From Candidatus Zixiibacteriota bacterium (GTDB lineage Bacteria > Zixibacteria > MSB-5A5 > GN15 > JACZUZ01), in assembly GCA_024280775.1 (NCBI GenBank), contig JAJRPM010000017.1:1-48532 (forward strand): a stretch of DNA of 48,532 bases, in the 5' to 3' direction. The position numbers were made by a program, and so were the translations under genes. Below are positions 40,489-43,102 of this stretch, piece by piece. The notes beneath the pieces are model-generated. The model had not been told where the DNA came from, did not search any database, and was given only the letters and a program-made list of their open reading frames with translations. Every line of letters begins with the position of its first letter. The first letter of the stretch is position 1.

Positions 40489-40518
40489 GGCAACCTTTCT
40501 AGAAAATCCAGTGTCTAA
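40489..40518 (+). promoter_or_regulatory. Candidate ECF-type promoter of the sigma gene (autoregulation)
   Basis: GGCAACC at 40489-40495 and GTCTAA at 40513-40518, with 17 bp between, match the general ECF promoter form (AAC core at -35, GTCTA at -10). Transcription would begin about 7 bases after GTCTAA, at or next to ATG 40526, so the message could be almost leaderless. Confidence 0.5.
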
Positions 40519-40525
40519 GTAGAGG

Positions 40526-41218
40526 ATGGAACGTAATAGGAACCTATTCTGGAAGCTTCTGGAACCGGATCATCCGAAGGCTGAAGCATTTAGCCGAAAA
40601 CTGATGGGGAATAGGGAGGATGGCGACGACCTCTATCAGGACGCGTTGGTCTTAGCGCTAACCAAGTTCTCGAGCTTGAAAGAGACCGCCGCTTTCCGAC
40701 CCTGGCTCTATCGGATTATAGTTAATTGCTTCAATAATCGCTTTCGGACACCTTGGTATCGAAAAGTTATTCCAATAACCGAAGAAATCAGCGCCTCGCT
40801 GAAGACCGTAGACCCAACTAACGGCTATACGGTTAGCAGACTCTTGCAAAAGGCGTACGCTGGTATTACAGTCGAAGAACGCGCTCTAGTTACGCTCTTC
40901 GAGATTGAAGGCTGGACTGTGGCCGATTTAGGCGCTGTGTATCAATGCCCTTCAGGAACAATCAAAGCCAGACTCTCAAGAGCTCGCAAGAAAATGAAAA
41001 AAACACTCTTGAAGGATTTGCAGGAAACAAAACTTAAGAATGACGCCAACAATACGGACAGAGCGGACGTAGCAAACAATGTGGTTTCAAAAAATGTAGC
41101 TTCAAACAATTCAAACAAAGTGATATTGAAATCCGTTTCGCACTCCCCATCAAGAGTAACTTCCGCGAGAGTGATTTCATCAGTAACTTCAATAGTGTCA
41201 AGAATGTATCACGAGTAA
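40526..41218 (+). CDS. ECF-family sigma factor
   Basis: This protein of 230 residues carries sigma region 2 (about 15-75; DGDDLYQDALVLALTKF, FRPWLYRIIVNCFNNRFR) and sigma region 4 (about 105-160; ALVTLFEIEGWTVADLGAVY, PSGTIKARLSRARKKMKK). The C-terminal 60 residues are Asn/Ser/Val/Lys-rich and carry no domain I know. The ATG at 40526 is directly preceded by AGAGG, so the ribosome site is unusually close. A coupled anti-sigma gene follows after 13 bp, and an ECF-like promoter precedes it. It likely switches on genes for the envelope or for surface export. Confidence 0.9.
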   Translation: MERNRNLFWKLLEPDHPKAEAFSRKLMGNREDGDDLYQDALVLALTKFSSLKETAAFRPWLYRIIVNCFNNRFRTPWYRKVIPITEEISASLKTVDPTNGYTVSRLLQKAYAGITVEERALVTLFEIEGWTVADLGAVYQCPSGTIKARLSRARKKMKKTLLKDLQETKLKNDANNTDRADVANNVVSKNVASNNSNKVILKSVSHSPSRVTSARVISSVTSIVSRMYHE

Positions 41219-41231
41219 GGGAGGCCGGCTC

Positions 41232-43031
41232 ATGAATTATCAAGTGAATTGCCCAATGGATTGTCAGCAAGCAATGAGCAAGATTGAAGAATATTGCCGG
41301 GCAGGAATTAAGAAAATTGACAATCAATTGTGTGAGAAGAACCTTCTCGAACATTTGACAGATTGTCCCGATTGTCTCAATGAAGCAGTGAAGCATTTTG
41401 AGATAGAGAGTATTGTCTCTCAGGCTTTCACTGAATCAAAAACCAATCTAGAACAAGCAAGTTTCGAAGGCGCGACACCATTGCAGTTTTTGCGCCCTAG
41501 AATCGAAGCGCGCGCAGATGGAAAGACATCAAGCGCAACTAAACCAATAGGAAACTCAACAATGTCCACCATATTCAATCAACTCAAGAATCGGTCGCGT
41601 CTAACAATTGGCGTGGCGCTTGCAACAGTTGCTCTGTTAGCAGTGACTGTAATACCTTTCAAGTATGACGACACCATCGGCTATGAAGTAGCATTTGCCG
41701 GTGTAAATAAAGTCTTGGCTCTCGATAGTGACAAGATCTCAAAATTACTAAATGAGCTTGGCGTTAAAGGCGCCACCGTTGATGTCAGTGGTTGCGAAAC
41801 AACTTGCAATCTCAAAATTACCGACCTTCAGACCGCTGAAGACGGTCGCTTGTTAATCGCCGCCTTCGAAAGCGTCGGCGCTGTGCATTTGACAAATGGA
41901 GTTACACCGATAGTCGACACTATTCAGGGCAGTCTTTTGTCCAAAGCCAGCAACTTTATCTTTATCAGTGGCGATGATGGAGAGTTTGGGGCTGAAAAGT
42001 TGAATAGTATTATCATTGAGAGACTAGGCGATAACTATGAAACACGGATAGAAGCTTGTTTCAAGACTATATCCGGTGATTCGATAGGCGTTGGAATCAA
42101 CACCTTGGATGGCGAAGATGGCGGTAACTTTTGGGTGATGGACAGCTCGACAGGTGATGCGGCTATGATGTTCTTCGGAGCAATCTCCGGTGATGACCTG
42201 AAAGGTTTTGACGTTGGCTCCGGACAGTTAACCGATGAGCAGATAGCCCGCCTACGGCAAGAGGGCTATACAGTTACTGTAGAGCTAGGAGATGACGGCA
42301 GTCAGCAAGTACTGCTTCATAGGGGCTCCGATTCTCTAACAATAGCGTTGAATATGCTTGATGATGACGGTGAACATATGTGGTTTGTCGATAGCGCTTC
42401 AGGTGATTCAATGTTAGTGTTCGGCGGTTCGGTTGTTGATGCTCAGTTAAACTTTCGTCATTTAGTAATGCCAGGTAACGATTCTTCTAATTGCAATTTA
42501 GGAGACCTCTCCGGATTTGACTTTAGCGATGGACAACTAACGGATGAGCAAATAGCCGAGCTGGAAGCCAAAGGTTACTCGGTAACCATCACCCAAACTG
42601 ACGACGGCAAACAGCAAATTGTCCTGCAAAAATCATCTACTTCCGGAGATGGTAGCATCCACGAGGAGAAGGAAGTTGTTGACTTCATCGGCAACGATGA
42701 TGCTCTAGCGAAGGAAACTCCCGATAGTCTCGGAGACCCGTCGGCTCTACCGGAAGGATTCGCATTGTCACAAAACTATCCGAACCCTTTCAATCCGAAT
42801 ACCAAGATTGATTACACCCTGGCGTCCACAGAACGTGTTCATATTGATATCCTAAATGTAATGGGCCAAACAGTGCGTACATTAGTTGATGAGCAGGTTG
42901 GTCCCGGGGCCCACACAGTCGAATGGGACGCCACCGACGACAATGGTCGTCAGGTAGCCTCCGGAATGTATTTCTATCGCTTCAAAGCCGGAAAAGCTGT
43001 TCAGACCAGGAAAATGACTTTACTGAAGTAA
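41232..43031 (+). CDS. Membrane anti-sigma protein with C-terminal T9SS/FlgD-like sorting domain
   Basis: This protein of 599 residues has AAGGGAGG 9 bases upstream of ATG 41232, 13 bp after the sigma stop. Residues 1-115 are cytoplasmic. They include HLTDCPDC (41-48), the HxxxCxxC zinc-binding anti-sigma motif, and further Cys at 7, 11, 22 and 34. One membrane helix (about 121-145, after KNRSR) leads to an outer region. That region includes two related units of 85-110 residues (281-364 and 365-475), each with LDxxDGxxxWxxDSxxGD and GQLTDEQIAxLxxxGY. Residues 510-599 are a full sorting domain: FALSQNYPNPFNPNTKIDY, ILNVMGQTVRTLV, GMYFYRFKAG, KMTLLK. The domain order is unusual, since sorting domains normally sit on signal-peptide cargo. 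Confidence 0.85.
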   Translation: MNYQVNCPMDCQQAMSKIEEYCRAGIKKIDNQLCEKNLLEHLTDCPDCLNEAVKHFEIESIVSQAFTESKTNLEQASFEGATPLQFLRPRIEARADGKTSSATKPIGNSTMSTIFNQLKNRSRLTIGVALATVALLAVTVIPFKYDDTIGYEVAFAGVNKVLALDSDKISKLLNELGVKGATVDVSGCETTCNLKITDLQTAEDGRLLIAAFESVGAVHLTNGVTPIVDTIQGSLLSKASNFIFISGDDGEFGAEKLNSIIIERLGDNYETRIEACFKTISGDSIGVGINTLDGEDGGNFWVMDSSTGDAAMMFFGAISGDDLKGFDVGSGQLTDEQIARLRQEGYTVTVELGDDGSQQVLLHRGSDSLTIALNMLDDDGEHMWFVDSASGDSMLVFGGSVVDAQLNFRHLVMPGNDSSNCNLGDLSGFDFSDGQLTDEQIAELEAKGYSVTITQTDDGKQQIVLQKSSTSGDGSIHEEKEVVDFIGNDDALAKETPDSLGDPSALPEGFALSQNYPNPFNPNTKIDYTLASTERVHIDILNVMGQTVRTLVDEQVGPGAHTVEWDATDDNGRQVASGMYFYRFKAGKAVQTRKMTLLK

Positions 43032-43057: not shown

Positions 43058-43102
43058 AAACCCCGTCGAGACAAGTGAAAGTCTCGATGGGGTTTTCTGT
43101 TT
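43058..43102 (+). terminator. Intrinsic terminator of the sigma/anti-sigma unit
   Basis: The stem 43058-43072 / 43081-43095 is 15 bp with one G-U pair and an 8-nt loop, and continues in TTTTCTGTTT. It ends the sigma/anti-sigma transcript. Confidence 0.88.

Follow-up and report, generated by a model that had tools for sequence, protein, structure and literature searches.

An ECF-linked membrane anti-sigma factor of Zixibacteria carries a T9SS-type sorting tag and a candidate internal start

Introduction

In FlgM/FliA, a sigma factor is made to respond to the state of a secretion apparatus by way of its anti-sigma factor: FlgM, which is small and soluble, leaves the cell through the flagellar type III system. 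The T9SS substrates known so far are free proteins. We know of no membrane anti-sigma factor under regulated proteolysis that carries a T9SS tag or a conserved internal start, and in the open-access literature, to which our search was confined, we found no description of a T9SS-tagged anti-sigma factor or of an internal start in an anti-sigma gene.

Several described systems share parts of the arrangement reported here. The Dma proteins of Bacteroidota combine an anti-sigma head, a helix, a disordered tether and an outer-membrane module (PMC13088901). Type A tags are recognised by PorV (PMC12618676, PMC7712824); PorA of Porphyromonas gingivalis, whose tag binds PorV, acts upstream of the ECF sigma factor SigP via PorXY (PMC7712824), and the energised step of the T9SS is release from the carrier (PMC10994853). 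For the anti-sigma factor RsiV, the site-1 protease is signal peptidase (PMC10202637). Here we describe a locus from the phylum Zixibacteria in which a zinc-binding anti-sigma head, a membrane helix and a T9SS-type tag occur in one polypeptide.

Results

The window, meaning the whole 48,532-nucleotide stretch of DNA that was analysed, contains an ECF sigma gene at 40526-41218 (this and the other features of the locus lie on the + strand). Its 230-amino-acid (aa) product has sigma-70 regions 2 and 4 only, both above the Pfam cut-off (PF04542, PF08281), and matches TIGR02937 at 59 bits. The anti-sigma gene follows at 41232-43031 and encodes a full-length product of 599 aa. The 13-bp gap between the genes (41219-41231) contains AAGGGAGG, the Shine-Dalgarno (SD) sequence of the anti-sigma gene (41217-41224), which overlaps the sigma stop codon and is supported by the sequence and by the SD statistics of the primary start. 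The sigma protein also ends in an Asn/Ser-rich low-complexity extension of ~65 aa (window 41020-41215).

Relatives of the anti-sigma protein were gathered with its N-terminal 253 residues over the order, then with a profile over the phylum, and 77 members were inspected (57 + 20). In all 77, an ECF gene lies directly upstream on the same strand, a few of these genes being cut by contig ends, and the gene directly 3' of it encodes a single helix after the head, the layout of ZAS anti-sigma factors. No conserved operon partners beyond the sigma and anti-sigma genes were seen in the family loci. Downstream of the anti-sigma gene, a hairpin resembling an intrinsic terminator (43058-43095; 15-pair stem, -27.3 kcal/mol, z -6.05) marks the probable end of the operon, which therefore probably consists of two genes.

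Upstream of the sigma gene lies a putative autogenous ECF promoter, GCAAC-N18-GTCTAA (40490-40519), whose -10 element ends 7 nt before the sigma ATG. Most sigma genes of the family (loci L066-L123) are preceded by this element at the corresponding position, in the form GYAAC-N17/18-GTCTWA, with its 3' end 6-8 nt from the start codon. A promoter motif so close to the start fits self-activation and a leaderless message, and the sigma mRNAs of the family are probably both leaderless and self-activated. When the full motif at this spacing was sought in the window genome and in a genome of the same genus (G001), the sole perfect match was the sigma gene's own promoter. Weaker matches in the same two genomes were at or below control counts, and none of the T9SS and cargo genes inspected carried the motif above chance; we thus claim no target gene for this sigma factor.

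The first 110 residues of the anti-sigma protein (41232-41561) form a cytoplasmic, zf-HC2-like ZAS head. Its zinc motif, C11-x29-H41-x3-C45-x2-C48, agrees with the ZAS pattern (H/C)-x(25-29)-H-x3-C-x2-C and is invariant in 23 tagged members, and zf-HC2 was matched in 6 of 18 relatives. As an anti-sigma head, it would bind and inhibit the cognate sigma factor. The transmembrane helix (residues 124-142, 41601-41657) was placed by hydropathy, and AlphaFold2 (AF2) models a helix at 125-140. Beyond it, the full-length AF2 model (mean pLDDT 63) contains a membrane-proximal domain (residues 143-240, 41658-41951) with a beta-alpha-beta-beta-alpha-beta fold, a pLDDT of about 90 and conserved C188/C192. 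Foldseek matched this domain only weakly, to PII-like proteins, and we left these matches out of the evidence. The following tether (residues 241-504, 41952-42743) is mostly disordered, with pLDDT values that stay below 50 for much of residues 246-510, and includes two copies of LTDEQI...G-Y-x-V-T. An alpha-beta-beta repeat resembling (L/K)TDEQI...G-Y-x-V-T...DDG, at 42220-42350 and 42510-42640 of the window, also occurs in tagless ectodomains (tails of L097, L101, L107 and L110).

A preliminary description of this DNA had identified the sigma gene, the 13-bp gap with a strong ribosome site, and an HxxxCxxC zinc head followed by one membrane helix, all of which our analysis bears out. The large ectodomain that it also described is in part a folded structure, a single domain of ~95 aa; about 250 further residues are mostly disordered.

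The window genome encodes the T9SS components SprA, PorU (665 bits) and, adjoining PorU, PorV, together with 47 T9SS sorting domains. The window contains a second tagged protein, a 331-aa open frame at 741-1715 (TIGR04183, 44.9 bits). Among the tagged proteins of the genome, the anti-sigma protein was the only one found to have a cytoplasmic head in front of its helix; of the doubtful others, those that we read mostly begin with ordinary signal peptides. The full-length anti-sigma product lacks the N-terminal cleavable Sec signal peptide of T9SS cargo, its helix being preceded by the 110-residue head.

The C-terminal sorting domain (residues 505-599, 42744-43028) is of T9SS type A. Residues 516-595 match TIGR04183 at 33.5 bits (cut-off 23), PF18962 at 30.3 (cut-off 27) and PF13860 at 36.6 (cut-off 27), and the motifs SQNYPNPFNP, GMYFYRF and KMTLLK are all present, in agreement with the complete domain claimed earlier. 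We also scored the tag with an HMM trained on 44 ordinary cargo tags, from which anti-sigma tags were excluded and against which cargo were scored leave-one-out. The window tag reached 137.7 bits and outscored 32 of the 44 cargo tags (median 127, range 39-152). Of the 23 anti-sigma tags scored, 20 exceeded 109 bits and the other three are degraded. The tag is a genuine T9SS-type tag, indistinguishable from the cargo tags of its own genome. AF2 models it with a pLDDT of about 92. The structures that it matches include the PorU, PorZ and mirolase tags, RemA/RemZ tags in complex with the SprA-PorV translocon, and FlgD and other Ig-like folds.

The match to FlgD raises the question of whether the beta-sandwich is instead a periplasmic FlgD-like module for sensing or dimerization that is never seen by the T9SS. 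FlgD is indeed among its best sequence and fold matches, and three relatives have degraded tags. We nevertheless consider this very improbable, given the standing of the window tag on the cargo-only HMM, the retention of NPFNP and a terminal KMTLLK-like motif in most tagged relatives, and the abundance of such tags on signal-peptide proteins of the genome. The preliminary description had set a plain FlgD-like module against its own proposal; the presence of PorU, PorZ, mirolase and RemA/RemZ tags among the best structural matches, alongside FlgD, speaks for the sorting domain.

When the segments are compared across all relatives, conservation is highest in the tag, at 55% mean identity (83% with the orthologue from the same genus), and lowest in the tether, at 19% (43% with that orthologue, on a par with the 41% of the head). 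The helix-to-tag distance in tagged members is 202-362 residues. A tether that is long and variable between conserved ends is also what one might expect if the tag only anchored the tail at PorV or the cell surface. The protein would then sense a surface ligand, or the spacing or tension of the envelope, a role that has been proposed for Dma or RsgI proteins. The same layout in Dma (PMC13088901) is consistent with such a role, as is the lack of a T9SS regulon signal from the promoter motif. We think it unlikely on balance: the tether shows no ligand-binding module, and a tag delivered by the T9SS would depend on T9SS function in any case.

The tag is carried by 26 of the 77 members, spread over at least five GTDB families in two or more orders. 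The remaining 51, all ECF-linked, were scored as tagless, although one of them, L087, runs off the end of its contig and clusters with tagged members. On a tree built from the head, helix and first domain of 57 members, no fewer than four changes are required to explain where the tag occurs, or three if only strongly supported branches are counted, numbers that L087 may inflate. The co-occurrence of tagged and tagless members in one ECF-linked family suggests that a wider anti-sigma family has long kept the tag as an option, and the 51 members scored as tagless indicate that basic sigma control does not need it. The expectation that ZAS-TM-CTD proteins would be found beside ECF genes in the same clade was thus borne out at 26 loci. 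Relatives lacking the tag, which had been named as counting against the proposal, do exist (the 51, with L087 truncated), but so do the 26 ECF-linked relatives that carry it.

A gene fusion or assembly artefact was considered and ruled out because 26 loci have the same layout. Presence outside the phylum was judged by one pattern scan of genome contigs, which returned 12 loci labelled Zixiibacteriota, FCB group or Calditrichaeota, and those with labels other than Zixiibacteriota match contigs of the same GTDB order. Two further groups of relatives deserve mention. The tagged members L094, L112 and L116 have degraded sorting domains (NPFNP is lost in L112) and may offer natural tests of the role of the tag. 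The HxxxCxxC zinc motif is lost in the tagless members L092, L100, L103, L104, L109, L114 and L121, which keep the helix, the ectodomain and the ECF neighbour.

A feature absent from the preliminary description is a conserved, probable internal start at 41562. Met111 is invariant in the alignment of tagged members; it precedes the helix by 13 residues, and a basic n-region comes after it. An AAGGAG-like SD (in the window AGGAA, 41549-41553) lies a short way upstream of the ATG. Counting an SD as at least 4 SD bases at proper spacing, we found one at this Met in 41 of the 43 family members that have it, compared with a mean of 17.5 and a maximum of 26 in 300 synonymous shuffles encoding the same amino acids. 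In one of the two misses, L067, a different Met had been taken, and its true Met98 is preceded by AAAGGAA. When the Met was chosen by SD score, a slightly favourable procedure, 42 of 44 had an SD, both exceptions being members without the conserved Met. SD words are concentrated at -15 to -10 and sparse over the rest of 150 bp. We find this probable start throughout the tagged members of the order, in one large clade without the tag, and in members from another family of the class (G091, G092); the short tagless members lack it.

Could the Met and the purine run be constrained by the protein, or by the needs of membrane insertion, without serving as a start? Purines are indeed favoured by the KE or RE that many members encode at this place. 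Yet the purine run is retained while the overlapping amino acids vary (KE, RE, IG, QR, LG, KG and others), with the SD kept in PIGN, LQRN, NKGI, GLGA and WEN contexts; the synonymous shuffles do not reproduce it, and an SD precedes just 42 of 277 other internal Mets. We therefore regard this explanation as improbable. The invariant ATG and the SD excess strongly indicate dual starts, with a second, headless in-frame product of 489 aa (41562-43031) composed of the basic n-region, hydrophobic helix, ectodomain and tag. The gene thus probably makes a second product that lacks the sigma-binding head.

Past the helix lies an A-x-A motif (AFA, residues 154-156; 41691-41699), a possible signal-peptidase-type site. 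Its spacing is fixed in the tagged members of the order: in 23 of 23 it is 15 residues past the hydrophobic core, which is 18 long. It is also linked to the tag. A scripted count found A-x-A in 23 of 26 tagged and 7 of 51 tagless members (Fisher p about 1e-10, not corrected for relatedness). Among the three scripted misses, L094 (GYELAVAG) was misparsed and two read A-x-G, which brings A-x-A or A-x-G to 26/26; one of the seven tagless matches is the truncated L087, a member of a tagged clade. AF2 places the motif inside a confident beta-strand. It could serve as a signal-peptidase-type first cut, as in RsiV (PMC10202637), or reflect mere beta-strand packing. Site-2-type M50 proteases are encoded in the window genome and could make the second cut of an RsiV-type pathway.

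The internal start and the A-x-A motif together invite another reading, in which the nested product is cleaved, freed as T9SS cargo and served by the tag, which the full-length anti-sigma protein carries as a passenger. In keeping with it, every tagged member of the order has the internal ATG, and A-x-A or A-x-G is associated with the tag. The internal-start product does have an n- and an h-region, but its A-x-A is 15 residues past the core, whereas in cargo with a motif near the core end the distance is mostly 2 to 7 residues. The motif also occurs in 6 of 20 short tagless members. We give this reading a small chance; the simpler idea that the internal-start product is just ordinary cleaved cargo was likewise lowered because of the measured spacing.

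Discussion

The window protein is a conserved and unusual membrane anti-sigma factor, most likely of trans-envelope type. The account that we favour, tentatively and with slightly less than even confidence, is that the locus is a self-activated two-gene sigma operon in which a tail-tagged anti-sigma factor bridges the envelope to the T9SS, proteolysis frees the sigma factor, and a nested headless isoform is made as well. In this account, the full-length protein would keep the ECF sigma factor at the inner membrane via its zinc head, and the long, flexible periplasmic tail with its type A tag would reach the outer-membrane T9SS (PorV/SprA), so that the anti-sigma factor spans the envelope. Altered engagement (export, jamming or a pulled tether) may expose the membrane-proximal domain to a first cut, possibly by signal peptidase at A154-x-A156, after which RseP would cleave in the membrane and the sigma factor would be freed. 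Initiation at Met111 on the same mRNA would give a copy that lacks the head but keeps the helix, ectodomain and tag, and this copy could be a partner or decoy of the anti-sigma factor, or free T9SS cargo if cut at A-x-A. Counting against this account, a helix-anchored T9SS substrate could jam the pore.

Does the operon then report on secretion itself? The preliminary description had suggested that the T9SS machinery could seize or cut the tag and so release the sigma factor according to export traffic or failure; our results support this in part, in the sigma/anti-sigma pair, the tag and the T9SS genes. A bolder form of the favoured account is that the gene yields a sigma-holding sensor and a headless tagged copy, that both read T9SS traffic, and that stalled or pulling export leads to cutting of the anti-sigma factor and firing of the sigma factor. 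We regard this as doubtful, if a real prospect. Our confidences in the favoured account and its rivals are not exclusive shares, and the rival concerning the internal SD bears on one part of that account.

To our knowledge, this is the first case in which a membrane anti-sigma factor and a T9SS sorting tag are joined in one protein. If the tail reaches the T9SS, diderms outside Bacteroidota would have their own route from the outer membrane, or its secretion machine, straight to transcription. A headless anti-sigma isoform from a conserved internal start would add a second, testable layer, and the tagged, tagless and degraded-tag relatives provide a natural control set within one phylum. Should T9SS traffic be what is read, the T9SS would have its own equivalent of FlgM-type sigma control coupled to secretion, complete with a built-in reporter. 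What is shared with FlgM/FliA is the idea of coupling to secretion state through an anti-sigma factor; FlgM is small and soluble, unlike the window protein.

Among membrane anti-sigma factors, the window protein resembles RsiW, RseA and RsiV (PMC10202637) in its single helix and ECF operon partner, and it shares its zinc head with the ZAS members. RsgI of Clostridium thermocellum (PMC12203970) likewise joins an anti-sigma head and a helix to an exterior sensor of modular build and is cut stepwise, but it differs in its single-membrane host, autoproteolytic periplasmic domain and carbohydrate-binding modules. As in PorA-PorXY-SigP (PMC7712824), a T9SS-tagged protein would act upstream of an ECF sigma factor in the regulatory chain; however, PorA is a separate surface protein that works through a two-component system, whereas here the tag and the anti-sigma head are in one polypeptide. 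The parallels with Dma (PMC13088901) comprise the N-terminal anti-sigma domain, one helix, a long disordered tether, a C-terminal module aimed at the outer membrane and an adjacent ECF partner. Dma proteins end in an outer-membrane beta-barrel, and the C-terminal domain of the window protein is a beta-sandwich that matches T9SS tags; because the barrel is absent, we do not file it as a Dma member. Dma has an ECF21 partner and is reported only from Bacteroidota, whereas the window protein, from Zixibacteria, has a T9SS beta-sandwich tag, an extra folded domain and a probable internal start.
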